Of a DNA stretch of 5,237 nt, positions 2 through 5,237 are shown in pieces. The stretch is from contig JACCXN010000034.1 of assembly GCA_013696965.1 (NCBI GenBank), positions 1-5,237 on the forward strand, given 5' to 3'. Both the position numbers and the translations under genes were made by a program. The stretch comes from Bacteroidota bacterium. GTDB taxonomy: Bacteria; Bacteroidota; Bacteroidia; JACCXN01. How positions within the stretch are numbered: the first letter of the stretch is position 1; each line of letters opens with the position of its first letter. A model generated the notes under the pieces. The model had not been told where the DNA came from and did not search any database. It saw only the letters and a list, made by a program, of their open reading frames with translations.

Positions 2-128
2 TTGCATATAAGCAAGTGGCGGTCTTGGTGCTCTATTGCAAAGCCTGGAATTTCTATTAACTTTGCTGCTCACGGTTTTTGGTTCGGTGCTGCAATCGCC
101 ACCTGCTTATATGCAAAAAACGTTAGCG
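2..128 (+). repeat. attC-like recombination site 1 (left outer box outside the window)
   Basis: An imperfect inverted repeat has arms at 2-23 and 95-116: GCATATAAGCAAGTGGCGGT on the left against ATCGCCACCTGCTTATATGC on the right. 20 of 22 positions pair, and the arms flank a 71-base central region. Five A residues and a C after the right arm lead to the R'-like box GTTAGCG (122-128). The matching R'' box would lie about 8 bases upstream of base 1 and cannot be seen. The inner ends GGCGGT/ATCGCC are shared with the site at 4791-4923, including the same two unpaired positions (14 and 21 of the arm). R' differs from the classical GTTRRRY, so a general attC model may score it poorly. Confidence 0.55.
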
Positions 129-292
129 GAAACCCTAAGGGCGACCGTGCAAGAATTAACGTAACGGACATGAAACAAAATTTTAACCACATCAGACACC
201 AGCGGACGACTGACCAACACGCAGACCGACCCAATGTATTTTTATTTTTTGCCCTCCCGCATTTTTTAAAAACAATTTTATTGCCGACACAC
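122..292 (+). repeat. Left cassette-end module, inverted partner of 4688-4798
   Basis: This non-coding-looking stretch runs from the R' box to the first hairpin. It begins GTTAGCGGA and contains two AT-tracts, GTATTTTTATTTTTT (236-250) and TTTTTAAAAACAATTTT (263-279). Both tracts recur exactly, as reverse complements, in the same order and at similar spacing in the right-hand module (4720-4734 and 4688-4704). The reading frame of the following gene stays open through here, but the translation is rich in Trp, His and Phe with no domain-like pattern, so I treat it as non-coding. The tract TATTTTTTG (243-251) resembles the Bacteroidota -7 element TAnnTTTG with one extra base. No convincing -33 element lies ahead of it, so a promoter here is only possible. 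Confidence 0.5.
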
Positions 293-357
293 ATTTGGCA
301 CATTTGGTTTTGCCCAACAGCAAAAGCCGACCCTTCGCAAAACCAAAAGAGCCAAAT
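293..357 (+). promoter_or_regulatory. Long hairpin just ahead of the first gene
   Basis: Arms 293-313 and 337-357 pair at 19 of 21 positions (TTTGGCACATTTGGTTTTGC with GCAAAACCAAAAGAGCCAAA) around a 23-base loop. The only mismatches are two A·A pairs flanking one C-G pair, in the core ACATTTG/CAAAAGA. The same core and the same two mismatches occur in the hairpin at 4607-4671, whose other stem pairs are different. Four T residues follow (357-360), so it could end transcripts arriving from an upstream cassette. It could equally be a 5' leader structure of this operon, because the signal-peptide codons of the next gene begin directly at its right edge. Confidence 0.5.
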
Positions 358-394
358 TTTCCCTCGCTCTGTTTGGCTTCTCTGCATCTTGACA

Positions 395-1819
395 ATGTTG
401 TTCTCCATTGACAGTTTTGCACAAATCAAAACACCGCAGACACCGCAATTTGAAAATCAACAACCTCAGACACCAACTCAAAATGCTTTAGGTGCAACGA
501 GTAACGACATTATGGAGCAGACCTACCGTAATGCTGAGAAACAAATGGGAGCATACATGAACAGACCTTACCTGACACCTGAACAAAACCAGAAAGCCGC
601 TCAACAATTTCAAATGCAACAGTTGCAAAACCAATCAGGTTATGGAAATCCGACTGCCCAAAACAATTTCAACCAAATGACACCGAAAGCCAAAATGGAA
701 AAGGAAATGGTTGAAATATTAAAGGAAAGTGAACACAGCAATTCCATCACAAACGAAAAAGACTATTACAATTCAGACTATTTCAAAAATGACCTTTCAG
801 GTTACATCAAAGCAAAACAGGTAATACAAGAAATGCTTAACGGCAAACTGACTTTAAGCATTAAGGACGCTTTTTACTTTTCAGAAGCAGCTTTTGGCGA
901 CCTGCATTTAACTTATCAAGAATACAACAATACCATAAAAGCAAACATCGACTTCATTAAGCAATGGCTGAAAGAAAATGGTTACAATTTGAATAATCCC
1001 GAAGCCCTGCATTATGGCATTCAAAAATTTATGTCTGACACATTATATATTACAGTTGATAGCAAAAAGCAAGGACACATTCCATACTATTACGATTATA
1101 TTGACATTCTTTCAGGAAAAGACAGAAAAAATTACTTTGTAACTAAAACCATTGCCACAGGTAGCGGACAATGCCACACTTTTCCAATTACTTATTTGAT
1201 TTTAGCCGAAGCACTCGGCATTGAAGCAAATTTGGCTTATAATCCGCAACATTCCTTTATCCGGTACAAAAACGATCAGGGTGCAGTGATTAACTACGAA
1301 ACAACGGTTGACAAGTTTCTGCCAAATTCATTTTACATTGAAACGCTTCCTGTAATGGCAGAAGCACAAAGAAACAGCTTGTATGTAACCGAACTAAACA
1401 AAAAACAAGTTGTAGCTTCCGTGCTGTTTGACTTGGCAGTTAATTTCATTAAAGAGCATTGGTTACATGACAAATCATTTGTTATTGATTGCATCAATTC
1501 GGCAGAGCCATTTTTTCCAAGACAAGGTTTCATCAACACCGCAAACAACTATTTACACAAGCGATTATATGCAGACGACTTCAATAGTAAAATTCAGGAA
1601 AGGGGAATTAAAGACTTGAAAGAAATGGAAAAATACCCCGATGTATTGCAAGCATACAAAAACTACTATGGTTATATGGAAAGTGTAAGCAAATTAGGAA
1701 TACAGGATTTTCCAGAAGCCGAATATTTACAGCTTCTTAAATACTATGACCAAAAGGGAAAAATACAAACAGCACAAAAGATAAATGCAAAATCAAAAAA
1801 ATCATTATTCATAAATTAA
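395..1819 (+). CDS. Exported protein with transglutaminase-like (Cys-His-Asn/Glu) domain
   Basis: The protein has about 474 residues if ATG 395 is the start. Just upstream the same frame encodes PRSVWLLCILTMLFSIDSFA followed by Q, which looks like a full type I signal peptide. The true start may therefore lie upstream, at a rare ATT (356) or a TTG (281 or 389); ATG 170 would add non-coding-looking sequence. The mature protein opens with about 90 Gln/Asn/Pro-rich residues, then a folded region. The transglutaminase-like core is GSGQCHTF (Cys260), QHSFIRY (His286) and NYETT (Asn300/Glu302), the usual cysteine-histidine-acid order of the transglutaminase/papain-like superfamily; the substrate is unknown. 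The C-terminal 170 residues look helical and may form TPR-like hairpins. The next gene starts 10 bases later and carries a diverged version of the same domain, so the two are probably co-transcribed and work together outside the cytoplasm. Whether the domain is enzymatic or only a scaffold cannot be told. Confidence 0.75.
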   Translation: MLFSIDSFAQIKTPQTPQFENQQPQTPTQNALGATSNDIMEQTYRNAEKQMGAYMNRPYLTPEQNQKAAQQFQMQQLQNQSGYGNPTAQNNFNQMTPKAKMEKEMVEILKESEHSNSITNEKDYYNSDYFKNDLSGYIKAKQVIQEMLNGKLTLSIKDAFYFSEAAFGDLHLTYQEYNNTIKANIDFIKQWLKENGYNLNNPEALHYGIQKFMSDTLYITVDSKKQGHIPYYYDYIDILSGKDRKNYFVTKTIATGSGQCHTFPITYLILAEALGIEANLAYNPQHSFIRYKNDQGAVINYETTVDKFLPNSFYIETLPVMAEAQRNSLYVTELNKKQVVASVLFDLAVNFIKEHWLHDKSFVIDCINSAEPFFPRQGFINTANNYLHKRLYADDFNSKIQERGIKDLKEMEKYPDVLQAYKNYYGYMESVSKLGIQDFPEAEYLQLLKYYDQKGKIQTAQKINAKSKKSLFIN

Positions 1820-1829
1820 TACTTTTACC

Positions 1830-4055
1830 ATGATGAAAACCTATATCCGAATATTCGTAGCAACCTTGTTGCTTTTTGGTGCTTGCAAAACGCAAAAGCC
1901 AATAATTAATGACAGTGTTTCTCATGCACCAGATGAAACTGTTCAGCCAAAGGTGGACACAGCCAATTATAACTATCCACCACCACGATATTACAGCGTT
2001 CCAAAGAAAGTATTCAAAGAATTAGAAAACTATGAAACGGCTTTTGACGAACTCAAAGCCATGTTGGAAGGCACTAAAGAACCAAATTTTGAAAGAGCCG
2101 TCTTTATCAGTGAAAATCCTTATCACGGAAGTAAATATACATACCAACAATTTCAAGAAATCATTGATGTTCATTTGTATTTTATCAATCAAATTATCAG
2201 TGAAAATGACAAGAGCGACAGCATTGATTTTAATGTAAAAGTTAATCAATACGGCAGGTTCAACATGGACGACATTAGACATTTACCTGACGAGAAAAAA
2301 GAACTTTATAAAAAAGCAATTGCCAATTGGTCAATCTTTACTTACATCACCGATACCGTAAAAATTTATCCGTTTTTTCATAAACCTTTTTCTTATGCTA
2401 CACATGACCCTTTTGGAATAAAAGATTGGTCAAATTCACAGGTAATTAATCTTCTTTATTCACAAGAACAAAAGGGCAACTGCTTTGCTCTGACTGCATT
2501 TTTCAAAATACTATCCGACAGGTTGAAATCGGATGCGAGAATTTGCACCGCCCCACAGCACATTTACATTCAGCACAAAGACAAAAAAGGAGACTATTAC
2601 AATGTTGAACTTGCAACCGCAGGACATCCCGGTGATGGAACAATTCAGACATTGACGCATACAACCACAGAAGGAATTAAAAGCGGTATTGCATTAAGAA
2701 GTTACGACACCAAACAAAGTATAGGCATTTGTTTAATAAATCTTGCTAAGAGCTATGAGCATAAGTTCGGTTCTAAAGACGATGATTTCATGCTCAAATG
2801 TGCTGAATTGGTTCTGAAGAATGACAGATTAAACCTAAATGCTTTATTGCTAAAACAACAGATTTTAGATGCAAGAGTAACAGGTTACGCAATAGAAAAC
2901 AACATCAACGACATCAACAATCTGAAAGCAAACAGTGAAATTTCACATACTGTTTATGAACTTGAAAGACACATTGCCTTGCTGTATCGCTTGGGCTATC
3001 GTCAAATGCCCTACGACATGCAGGAAATTATCATGACAGGGATAATTCCTGAAACTTTTGTAGATAAAAATCCAACTCCGTTCACCACCATTGACCCAGT
3101 TGACGAACACAGAAAAAAGTTTACAACTCTTTATGGTGGTGTTTTTCAAGAAGTATTTGTAACAAGAGAATTTGAACCGTTTGGACATTTTACCTTTCAA
3201 ACTGCCACCAACAAAATCACAGTCATTGACACCACAGCACAAACAGGATTTTTAATTGACCCTGTTGCTTTTGCTTACGATTTTGGAGCAAGAATGTATG
3301 ATGCAAGGTTGGGGATGTTCACAAGTGTTGACCCCAAATTCAATGTGTTTCCTTCAAGGTCTCCCTACTCTGCTTTTATGAATAACCCGATATTTTGGGA
3401 CGACCCTGATGGACAATGTCCTATTTGTCCTTGGTTAGATGCAATAGTGGATATTGGTTTTGTAGCCTACGATGTAGGTTTATTAATTCATGAAAAGGTA
3501 ACTACAGGCTCTACAAGCGGAGCAAATTGGGCGGCTCTTACTGCTGATGTTGGTTCTATTTTTATTCCTATGTCAGTCGGAGCAGGTATGGCAGTTCGTG
3601 CAGGTTTAACCACCACAAAAATAGGTGCTAAAACAACGACAAAACTTGTAATTAAAAGTGCCGATAATGTTAAGGATATAACTACTCAAGTTCTAAAAAA
3701 ACATGACATTGCCGCTGATGCAGTTAAAGTAGTTCAAGGAAAGTCAGATAAAGTGGCAGTAATTGGTCAGGGAATGACAAGAGTTAAAGGGTTAGGTGAT
3801 GAAATTGGTGCTAATGTGTTTAATCCATCGAAAGCAGCACAAAAAGAATGGGATGATTTATTAATAAAATCAGGAGGAGGTAAATTGAGTGATGATGTGG
3901 TTAAGAACACAAAACTACATAAAGAAAATCAAACATGGATTAAACAAATGAAAGATGAAGGTGCAACAATAATAGACATTGGAAGTCAACAAGGCAAATC
4001 TAAAAGCACATTTTACGAAATGGAAAAAACTACCATATATGGAAGCGGAAATTAA
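1830..4055 (+). CDS. Transglutaminase-like lipoprotein fused to Rhs core end and C-terminal toxin domain
   Basis: The protein has 741 residues and an ATG-ATG start 10 bases after the upstream stop. Residues 1-19 are a lipoprotein signal (LLLFGAC, lipobox Cys19). Residues about 85-262 form a transglutaminase-like domain with GNC (Cys218), QHIYI (His244) and NVEL (Asn258/Glu260). A helical, TPR-like part runs to about 410, including LGYRQMP. A linker leads to the Rhs core end: YDFGARMYDARLGMFTSVDP (483-502), SPY (511-513), NNP (518-520) and DPDG (525-528). This resembles the site where classical Rhs proteins cleave off their toxin, but the large Rhs cocoon is absent. Residues 535-605 resemble a pre-toxin linker (DIGFVAYDVG, then a Gly/Ala/Thr-rich stretch). 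Residues about 641-738 (VAVIGQGM ... KENQTWI ... IIDIG ... FYEMEKTTIYG) look like a polymorphic-toxin C-terminus that I cannot assign to a named family. The candidate immunity gene overlaps the 3' end by 17 bases. The toxin role is inferred from architecture; the domain order is visible. Confidence 0.82.
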   Translation: MMKTYIRIFVATLLLFGACKTQKPIINDSVSHAPDETVQPKVDTANYNYPPPRYYSVPKKVFKELENYETAFDELKAMLEGTKEPNFERAVFISENPYHGSKYTYQQFQEIIDVHLYFINQIISENDKSDSIDFNVKVNQYGRFNMDDIRHLPDEKKELYKKAIANWSIFTYITDTVKIYPFFHKPFSYATHDPFGIKDWSNSQVINLLYSQEQKGNCFALTAFFKILSDRLKSDARICTAPQHIYIQHKDKKGDYYNVELATAGHPGDGTIQTLTHTTTEGIKSGIALRSYDTKQSIGICLINLAKSYEHKFGSKDDDFMLKCAELVLKNDRLNLNALLLKQQILDARVTGYAIENNINDINNLKANSEISHTVYELERHIALLYRLGYRQMPYDMQEIIMTGIIPETFVDKNPTPFTTIDPVDEHRKKFTTLYGGVFQEVFVTREFEPFGHFTFQTATNKITVIDTTAQTGFLIDPVAFAYDFGARMYDARLGMFTSVDPKFNVFPSRSPYSAFMNNPIFWDDPDGQCPICPWLDAIVDIGFVAYDVGLLIHEKVTTGSTSGANWAALTADVGSIFIPMSVGAGMAVRAGLTTTKIGAKTTTKLVIKSADNVKDITTQVLKKHDIAADAVKVVQGKSDKVAVIGQGMTRVKGLGDEIGANVFNPSKAAQKEWDDLLIKSGGGKLSDDVVKNTKLHKENQTWIKQMKDEGATIIDIGSQQGKSKSTFYEMEKTTIYGSGN

Positions 4056-4593
4056 AAATTTACCAAAAGATATTGGACAGAAAATATTGATTGTGGTTAA
4101 GAATACTAAATCAATTTTTCAACCATTGAAGTCGTATGACTATGTTCTTGAAAAAATTGAGTTTGATAAGAGCTTAGTTATAAAATACGCATTAAATATA
4201 ATTTACAGTAATCATTCGGCTAATAGAAAAATAATTATTCACTATGAGCCGATTGATATAGAAAACAAAAGTATTGATATGCTAACACTGCATATAATTA
4301 AAATGAATGACTCTGAAAAGGAAATTGAATTTTATAGGTTTTTAAAAAAATGCGATATTCAAATTGACTTGGACACATTGCTTTATATAAATCACGATAA
4401 ATCGTGGTCATTTAAAGAAAATACAAAAGTTGTTCTGAAACTGAATTTGCTATACTTGACCACATTAGCAGAAAATATTATTACGGGTAAAAAGTGGGAA
4501 GAAGGATTAAAGTTTAAGTGGGATGAGCAATTAGAAAAAATGATATATGAAGAACAAAAAAATATATTATATAAGGACAACAAGCAAGAGTAA
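4039..4593 (+). CDS. Putative cytoplasmic immunity protein for the Rhs-linked toxin
   Basis: The protein has 184 residues from ATG 4039, which lies inside the end of the toxin gene (17-base overlap). That spacing suggests translational coupling. A TTG at 3979 in the same frame would add 20 residues inside the toxin codons and is less likely. There is no signal peptide or membrane segment, and the protein is rich in Lys, Ile, Glu and Asn with alternating strand- and helix-like segments. I do not recognise the family. The immunity role rests on position directly after a toxin C-terminus, small size, cytoplasmic character and base composition: sample lines contain 13 and 15 G/C in 60, against 24 and 29 in 60 in the two upstream genes. 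Such AT-richness is common in immunity genes exchanged with their toxin. A cytoplasmic immunity protein would imply a toxin that acts on a cytoplasmic target. Confidence 0.65.
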   Translation: MEAEIKNLPKDIGQKILIVVKNTKSIFQPLKSYDYVLEKIEFDKSLVIKYALNIIYSNHSANRKIIIHYEPIDIENKSIDMLTLHIIKMNDSEKEIEFYRFLKKCDIQIDLDTLLYINHDKSWSFKENTKVVLKLNLLYLTTLAENIITGKKWEEGLKFKWDEQLEKMIYEEQKNILYKDNKQE

Positions 4594-4606
4594 TGCATTC
4601 ATCCGT

Positions 4607-4674
4607 AAGCACACACATTTGCAAGTCGCACAAGCCAACTCACAAACCAAAACTTGCAAAAGAGTGTGCTTTTT
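4607..4674 (+). terminator. Hairpin plus T-tract after the operon, possible intrinsic terminator
   Basis: Arms 4607-4626 (AAGCACACACATTTGCAAGT) and 4652-4671 (ACTTGCAAAAGAGTGTGCTT) pair at 18 of 20 positions around a 25-base loop, and T5 ends at 4674. The hairpin starts 14 bases after the stop of the immunity-like gene, which fits a terminator. The loop is larger than in typical intrinsic terminators. The internal core ACATTTG/CAAAAGA with two A·A mismatches is identical to the hairpin at 293-357, so it may be a cassette-family structure with another role. Confidence 0.5.
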
Positions 4675-4687
4675 GCCACCCAAGTAA

Positions 4688-4798
4688 AAAATTGTTTTTA
4701 AAAATTTCCAACCCTTCAAAAAAAATAAAAATACGCAACCGCACAACCCACGACAGACTATGCAACTCGACACGAAAGCCAGAAGGGCATCCGCTAAC
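4688..4798 (-). repeat. Right cassette-end module, inverted partner of 122-292
   Basis: Read on the minus strand from the box at 4791-4798, this region begins GTTAGCGGA and then carries GTATTTTTATTTTTT (complement of 4720-4734) and TTTTTAAAAACAATTTT (complement of 4688-4704). The order and approximate spacing match the left module. A short ORF crosses it on the + strand (4593-4832), but it runs through the hairpin and into the attC-like stem and has no protein-like pattern, so I treat the region as non-coding. Confidence 0.5.
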
Positions 4799-4923
4799 AG
4801 CACCTACAAGAAATTGGCGGTTCAGTGGTTAAATAAAGCTTTGTGCTTCGTATCAAGTTTTGTGGTGGCAGACAGTTTTCGTCTCCGAAATCGCCAACTT
4901 CTTGTAGCTGCAAACCGTTAAAT
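4791..4923 (+). repeat. attC-like recombination site 2 (complete)
   Basis: The site runs from an R''-like box CCGCTAAC (4791-4798) through arms 4800-4822 and 4889-4911 to the R' box GTTAAAT (4917-4923), which fits the classical GTTRRRY. The arms pair at 20 of 23 positions (CTACAAGAAATTGGCGGTT against AATCGCCAACTTCTTGTAG plus a few outer bases). Mismatches fall at arm positions 4, 14 and 21; the last two coincide with those of site 1. The central region is 66 bases long and differs from that of site 1 except for short stretches such as CTTTG and TGCT. At about 133 bases the length is within the range of long attC sites. Confidence 0.6.
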
Positions 4924-5020
4924 GACCTTGCGAATATTTTTTGAGAAGTCATGTAACTTCGCGTTAGCCGCAGCGGAAAAAGTAGCCGCGATTTTTTCAG
5001 AGCATGGACATCATTCATGA
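4922..5020 (+). CDS. Possible 32-residue peptide at the start of the next cassette
   Basis: ATG 4922 overlaps the R' box of attC-like site 2, so it would be the first reading frame of the downstream cassette. The product (MTLRIFFEKSCNFALAAAEK, then VAAIFSEHGHHS) is Ala/Phe-rich and amphipathic in appearance. I do not recognise it. Its stop TGA overlaps the next ATG as ATGA. It is short enough to be chance, and no ribosome-binding site or promoter is evident. Confidence 0.2.
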   Translation: MTLRIFFEKSCNFALAAAEKVAAIFSEHGHHS

Positions 5021-5106
5021 TCAATGAATGCACAGACAAAATCCCGGCTCCTTCAAAAAAATTTCAGGGACAAAAACATTATTTTGACCAGACAGTTGTC
5101 GTTTGA
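5017..5106 (+). CDS. Possible 29-residue peptide overlapping the preceding small ORF
   Basis: ATG 5017 overlaps the TGA of the previous small frame (ATGA), an arrangement typical of translational coupling. The product starts MINECTDKIPAPSKKFQGQK and ends at TGA 5104-5106. It is polar with no recognised motif. The two frames could also be pieces of one gene broken by a frameshift. Chance is a real possibility. Confidence 0.15.
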   Translation: MINECTDKIPAPSKKFQGQKHYFDQTVVV

Positions 5107-5237
5107 TAGACTCAAAACTAACGAGGCCGCCTTTTCCGAGTAAGCAATAGCGTAGTTGTCGTGGTGTTGGGTTAAGGCGCAAACGCCATTTAACAGGCGG
5201 TTAACGCCAACCTGGGCATTGGGTAAAGAATGTGTGT
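5107..5237. other. Non-coding tail with two adjacent small hairpins
   Basis: I see no gene here. GTTAAGGCG (5171-5179) pairs with CGCC (5184-5187) and TTAAC (5190-5194), leaving two bulged bases and a CAAA loop. GGCG (5196-5199) pairs with CGCC (5205-5208) around GTTAA. These two hairpins share the GGCG/CGCC stem and GTTAA letters. They may belong to another repeat that continues past the window. Confidence 0.3.

Follow-up and report, generated by a model that had tools for sequence, protein, structure and literature searches.

Organisation of the locus

In the present study, we examined a stretch of 5237 bp (hereafter, the window), which constitutes the entire contig C34 of a Bacteroidota genome (G000; 3.86 Mb in 106 contigs). 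The window harbors a polymorphic toxin operon between two imperfect palindromes, and we interpret positions 123-4917 as a gene cassette belonging to an integron-type array on the chromosome, the recombinase of which would be encoded by two other contigs, C44 and C14. We put the probability of this reading, which draws on sequence comparisons, at roughly 85%. Throughout, C refers to contigs of the source genome, G to genomes, and L to loci, with L212 stemming from genome G018. The following features were assigned:

1-124, + strand: attC-like site of the preceding cassette, family A (covariance model, E=5.7e-15; inverted repeat 2-21/97-116)
122-129, + strand: R'-type start box of the cassette, GTTAGCGG, exact complement of 4791-4798
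123-4917, + strand: putative cassette of 4795 bp comprising the toxin operon and its own attC-like site, delimited by matching boxes and by the limits of DNA homology in G018
170-1819, + strand: open reading frame (ORF) 1, up to 549 amino acids, weak transglutaminase-like match, homologues in L212 (74%), L213-L215 and C68
236-357, + strand: non-coding leader with a hairpin, imperfect inverted copy at ~4607-4734
1830-4055, + strand: ORF2, 741 amino acids, lipoprotein-like polymorphic toxin (TIGR03696, 34.2 bits; cut-off 32.5)
4039-4593, + strand: ORF3, 184 amino acids from the ATG at 4039 (204 from the TTG at 3979), presumed immunity protein
4791-4919, + strand: attC-like site of the window cassette, family B (covariance model, E=8e-27; five near-copies)
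4918-5237, + strand: short cassette following the present one, lacking a convincing gene (start box GTTAAATG at 4917-4924; end box CATTTAAC at 5187-5194)

A covariance model, a type of search that an initial annotation of this DNA had proposed, matched both sites of the window. The palindromes proper span 1-120 and 4795-4916, and each is one member of a repeat family. The left site has its core GTT at 122-124, with a predicted cut between G122 and T123, and its own R'' box lies beyond the contig edge. The right site is composed of an R'' box (4791-4798), a stem (4800-4822/4889-4911) and a core GTT (4917-4919). Family A, to which the left palindrome belongs, has more than 25 further copies of 88-100% identity on 15 contigs of the source genome, and several contigs terminate within such a copy, as expected because repeats break assemblies. 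Family B, represented by the right palindrome, has its near-copies on three contigs. Since the window is bordered by family A on the left and family B on the right, both site types coexist in one array, and additional stem types are present in the same arrays of the source genome. These consist of tandem cassettes, each closed by an imperfect palindromic attC-like site with AAC/GTT cores. Thus, arrays of similar palindromes around other cargos, which the initial annotation had named as a prediction of its cassette hypothesis, are present in the genome, and the same stem occurs beside other cargos there and in further genomes.

Matching cassette ends and homology limits

It had been noted that the left end of the segment (GTTAGCGG, 122-129) and its R''-like box (CCGCTAAC, 4791-4798) are exact reverse complements. 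This holds, and the matching extends beyond chance to the 23 cassettes of the source genome that were delimited by site scanning (23 adjacent site pairs). For each pair, the hexamer following GTT in the upstream site was compared with the hexamer preceding AAC in the downstream site. Start and end boxes of the same cassette were complementary at 5.8 of 6 positions, whereas other combinations of boxes gave 2.6 of 6; the observed sum was not attained in any of 100,000 permutations (p<1e-5). Box matching holds also in arrays of other genomes. The box GTTAAAT at 4917 indeed pairs by its core only, because it opens the next cassette and finds its partner in CATTTAAC (5187-5194); the attC of that cassette is truncated by the contig end, 43 bases past this box. 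Matching ends in each unit are consistent with the unit having formerly been closed into a circle. In line with the earlier suggestion that excision would rebuild a fully paired attC, the predicted circle (G4917 joined to T123) folds better than the linear site (-36.5 versus -26.0 kcal/mol for the bottom strand). What required correction is the notion that 4.8 kb is an unusual size for a cassette: those of the source genome measure 297-7298 bp (median, 1350; by site scanning), so that the present one is not the largest, with the reservation that the two largest may conceal sites of other type.

A further delimitation comes from L212, a locus of another family of the same class, where DNA similarity begins exactly at window position 122 and ends at 4921. 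The two end pieces are 90% identical and the middle piece 79%, and two stretches are without DNA match (427-674 and 3335-4606), the second of which covers the toxin tip and immunity gene that are replaced by others in G018. As judged from the sequences, these exact homology limits are the strongest single piece of evidence for a cassette and, together with the box matching, support the assignment of the segment to the integron type.

Palindromes that recur in many copies and at contig ends would also fit MITE-like (miniature inverted-repeat transposable element) or REP-like (repetitive extragenic palindromic) repeats moved by a transposase, with the cassette pattern being incidental. We regard this as scarcely credible. 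The boxes differ between cassettes yet match within each, a transposon end would not be expected to covary with its cargo, and homology stops exactly at the cores. Besides, the sites are co-oriented with an integrase gene and start at an attI-like core (see below).

In G018, the toxin cassette is solitary, lying outside any array (L212:3390-3415 and 8255-8275). Its flanks read ...CTTTCA/GTTAGCGG and ...CAAAACG/ATAAC (slashes marking the borders), with an apparent insertion at G^ATAAC, which is reminiscent of integration at a secondary (attG-like) site. An uninterrupted flank, i.e. the empty site, was not found in any relative.

Hairpin structure and strand bias

An alignment of 43 diverse sites was used to assess covariation. 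Two-sided changes were found at 20 of the 21 stem pairs, and the covariation score of the stem was 0.724, compared with 0.170 for shuffled and ~0.1 or less for slid versions. The one other stem position holds an A.C mismatch in each of the 43 sites, corresponding to a G.T pair on the bottom strand. Fold stability favored the bottom strand in 65 of 69 sites (p=1.5e-12); top-strand A.C outnumbered G.T mismatches by 136:60 in the stem and 73:4 in the outer box, with both mismatch types having been treated alike in the strand-bias scoring. A C precedes GTT in 98/99 sites. Canonical attC sites follow the bottom-strand rule and carry conserved extrahelical bases on the R''-L'' arm (PMC2727003). The present sites have the bottom-strand preference and the C before GTT in common with them. 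However, the R' box fits the GTTRRRY consensus in merely 9 of 98 sites and the R'' box fits RYYYAAC in 5 of 99. Neither was there a conserved bulge column in the 43 sites that would correspond to an extrahelical base on the R''-L'' arm; bulges do not favor this arm over the opposite one (22 versus 30 of 78). No Rfam family matches the hairpins.

The hairpin loops show a weak enrichment of the Bacteroidota -7 promoter motif TANNTTTG in forward direction (8/57, against 2.4 in shuffled sequences). By virtue of this motif, the sites might drive expression of the next cassette.

Integrases at the array heads

The initial annotation saw no integrase in view, which is correct for the 5.2-kb contig but not for the genome. 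G000 encodes two tyrosine recombinases of the same build, on C44 and C14, each upstream of co-oriented sites; the first site behind the C44 integrase belongs to family A and that behind the C14 integrase to family B. The integrase is transcribed toward the array, and an attI-like site follows beyond its 3' end: 11 arrays, drawn from various contigs and genomes, have a GTT core located 71-212 bp past the integrase end that matches the end box of the first cassette at 9/9 positions (chance expectation, ~0.005 per array). In canonical integrons, the integrase usually faces away from the cassettes, with reversed cases being known. Among the matched cassettes in the loci of other genomes, 25 lie on the integrase strand and one on the opposite strand. 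This single exception is from Pseudoalteromonas, a genome with a true IntI, and arrays beside true IntI, as in Pseudoalteromonas, usually run opposite to the integrase.

The first cassette of the C44 array carries, on the opposite strand, a gene for a protein with a DnaA-type helix-turn-helix domain (L043:11535-12254). The C44 integrase itself (L043:9213-11150) is 646 amino acids long and apparently contains about three copies of an N-terminal domain that is present once in most relatives.

A recombinase with the IntI extra domain had been anticipated by the initial annotation. An integrase does stand at the array heads together with an attI-like site, yet that domain, which defines known integron integrases (PMC9668308), is absent. 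Among PDB sequences, IntI4 (2a3v) matches best, in two segments that leave a gap at the position of the IntI extra domain, and the top fold match is XerA (5hxy). Nearly all Bacteroidota members have 64-67 residues (one has 69-70) separating the KG..KDR motif from H.LRHS, whereas the distance is 106-107 in IntI1 and five other IntIs; the array-head integrases are without the 41-residue IntI insertion. A phylogenetic tree placed the Bacteroidota integrases outside a fully supported IntI clade, with the deeper order not resolved. Against NF040815, the C14 integrase scores 217.8 (cut-off 220).

Is this, then, a canonical integron with an overlooked IntI and divergent attC sites? The cassette logic, attI, strand bias and box complementarity are all integron-like. 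However, TIGR02249, the profile for canonical IntI, stayed below cut-off in all 80 genomes searched (G000 and 79 relatives), while it scored above cut-off in 6/6 control genomes. Given, in addition, the rarity of GTTRRRY, the lack of conserved extrahelical bases and the missing insertion, we deem a canonical integron very unlikely, and read the system as an integron variant instead. In IntI, it is the I2 helix onto which the extrahelical bases of a single-stranded attC dock (PMC7790495), so that a protein feature and the very DNA feature that it contacts are absent together here.

The N-terminal domain of the C14 integrase measures ~68 residues with a predicted beta-beta-alpha-beta-beta-alpha-beta order. 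Modelled alone, it matched the archaeal XPB N-terminal domain best, tied with CASTOR1 (XPB: Z 7.5, root-mean-square deviation (rmsd) 2.0 Å over 59 residues), and it resembled the HARP domain of SMARCAL1 to a lesser degree (Z 4.2, rmsd 1.7 Å, 47 residues). Profile families assigned HARP (PF07443) to one of 13 members (E=0.0032) and DUF5710 to four of 13; a PDB sequence search with the domain profile returned chance-level matches only. The N-terminal damage-recognition domain of XPB and HARP domains bind forked or distorted DNA. We give about even odds to the idea, derived from the structural models, that the XPB/HARP-like domain reads the hairpin in place of the IntI I2 helix.

Distribution among Bacteroidota

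The number of carriers was determined with the hairpin covariance model in a sample of the class (80 genomes, 68 genera), and several of the loci discussed here derive from metagenome bins. Hairpin sites were detected in 66/80 genomes and 59/68 genera; the model hit none of 21 genomes outside Bacteroidota, six of which carry canonical IntI. The named integrase relatives with arrays are all Bacteroidota. In Flavobacterium enshiense DK69 (L137), eight matched cassettes follow one another, and further named carriers with matched boxes are F. aciduliphilum, Algibacter, Winogradskyella, Aquiflexum and a Chryseobacterium plasmid. The latter (L110; NZ_CP041688.1) has the same integrase-cassette layout, with IS110 and group II intron insertions breaking it up. 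In phage records, only distant integrases were found. A published survey reported complete integrons to be very rare in Bacteroidetes (PMC9024848), and our search of the open-access literature, its scope excluding bioRxiv and subscription papers, retrieved no description of these arrays.

Each of the 39 relatives with the long integrase carries hairpins, as opposed to 26 of the 40 that lack it (Fisher p=3e-5), and the long integrase is missing from all 14 hairpin-free genomes. This bears on the scenario of true integron cassettes being moved, solely or in part, by another tyrosine recombinase (e.g. Xer), for which those 26 genomes and the several additional tyrosine recombinases encoded by G000 could be invoked. 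We consider this scenario unlikely in view of the above co-occurrence, and with an attI-like core just beyond the integrase gene in the 11 arrays.

The toxin operon and other cargo

The cargo of the window consists of a polymorphic toxin and a presumed immunity gene, probably serving antagonism between bacteria. The products of ORF1 and ORF2 look secreted or lipoprotein-like; the true start of ORF1 may be later than annotated, at a signal-peptide-like stretch near 390. Within ORF2, the RHS-associated core maps to ~3222-3416 and is followed by a variable C-terminal toxin tip (~3430-4052). ORF3 lies directly after this tip and is exchanged along with it in G018 and C68, and it is presumed to encode the immunity protein; profile searches, including known immunity families, yielded no family match at a credible score. 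At the opposite ends of the cassette, the leader (236-357) and its counterpart (4607-4734) share exact inverted stretches of 17/17 and 15/15 plus the hairpin. A comparable leader (84%) is found in a C88 cassette (C88:2169-2295), ~118 bp from the cassette start.

The source genome has a second toxin cassette on C68 (4573 bp), whose ORF2 is 40% identical up to DPDG and unrelated beyond. ORF1 of this cassette (L044:391-2335) is broken into two frames of 292 and 319 amino acids, and the copy may thus be decaying. G060 carries a related toxin within a 5192-bp cassette with matched boxes. No attC-like sites were found near the more distant operon homologues L213-L215, suggesting that the operon exists outside cassettes, too. 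The initial annotation had considered that homologues at the same locus without palindromes would speak against a cassette; L213-L215, however, lie at different loci. Other cassettes of the source genome encode a Gp49 (RelE-like) toxin-type protein, a BRCT-domain exonuclease, a glyoxalase, and TonB-C, MORN and SdpI-like proteins, besides many unknowns.

Proposed mechanism and its weighing

We propose that the C44/C14 tyrosine recombinase would recognise the folded bottom strand of each attC-like hairpin and cut at G^TT. The cassette might then enter another attC or the attI-like site, which lies ~70-210 bp past the integrase gene at its 3' side. Excision, in turn, would join G4917 to T123 and thereby restore the fully paired outer stem GTTAGCGG/CCGCTAAC. 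Self-complementary cassette ends, the integrase-attI-attC order, a covarying, strand-biased hairpin, exact homology limits and the absence of the IntI-specific domain are properties of the sequences themselves. From these, we infer that the integrases act on these sites and that the recombination substrate is single-stranded.

Several points weigh against this interpretation. The tie between integrase and array is one of position, co-occurrence and architecture, and recombination activity is deduced from sequence. In 26 genomes, hairpins are present without the full-length integrase, possibly as remnants. The XPB/HARP likeness reaches Z 7.5 at most, a range in which a common arrangement could also explain it. 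Finally, the assembly is broken at repeats, and the array order in the source genome is therefore not resolved. Nevertheless, we favor the cassette reading. The broader proposition that Bacteroidota possess a class-wide integron lineage of their own, in which an I2-less recombinase with an XPB/HARP-like domain and the A.C mismatch would replace I2 and extrahelical bases, appears to us equally balanced between right and wrong.

The origin of integrons is ascribed to the acquisition of the I2 helix by a Xer-like recombinase, yet the causal link was not testable, as deletion of I2 kills IntI1 (PMC7790495). Here, we describe a natural and widespread system with arrays, attI and bottom-strand-biased hairpins but neither I2 nor conserved extrahelical bases. 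With both features absent, this question would become directly testable. If our reading is true, the system could be either a second way of recombining hairpins or a relic predating I2. A large Bacteroidota cassette reservoir (toxins, toxin-antitoxin-like genes and many unknowns) has probably been invisible to searches for IntI and canonical attC.

Comparison with known systems

The arrays resemble sedentary chromosomal integrons such as the Vibrio cholerae superintegron (IntI4/VchIntIA; V. cholerae repeats, VCR) in their tandem cassettes of one orientation, attC hairpins of ~120 nt with AAC/GTT ends, complementary R boxes, bottom-strand bias, integrase-adjacent attI and many cassettes of unknown function. 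On the other hand, they differ in that an IntI-specific domain, GTTRRRY and conserved extrahelical bases are missing, and in the conserved A.C stem mismatch, the extra N-terminal domain, the position of attI past the integrase 3' end, and an integrase read toward the array. In the genomes searched, they are moreover confined to Bacteroidota.

With XerA/XerC/XerD (NF040815, 'site-specific tyrosine recombinase/integron integrase'), the integrases share the catalytic domain and the motif spacing of ~65 residues. Xer proteins act on dif-type duplex sites. Unlike Xer, the integrases described here head hairpin-cassette arrays and carry an added N-terminal domain. This domain is similar, if weakly, to HARP (SMARCAL1) and XPB, and differs from these in being fused to a tyrosine recombinase.

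As for the cargo, the RHS-core polymorphic toxins (Zhang et al. 2012, PMC3482391) have the same architecture as ORF2: a conserved N-terminal part, an RHS-associated core ending near DPDG and an exchangeable C-terminal tip, followed by a presumed immunity gene. What sets the present operon apart from these is that it appears to be framed, as a whole, as an integron-type cassette.

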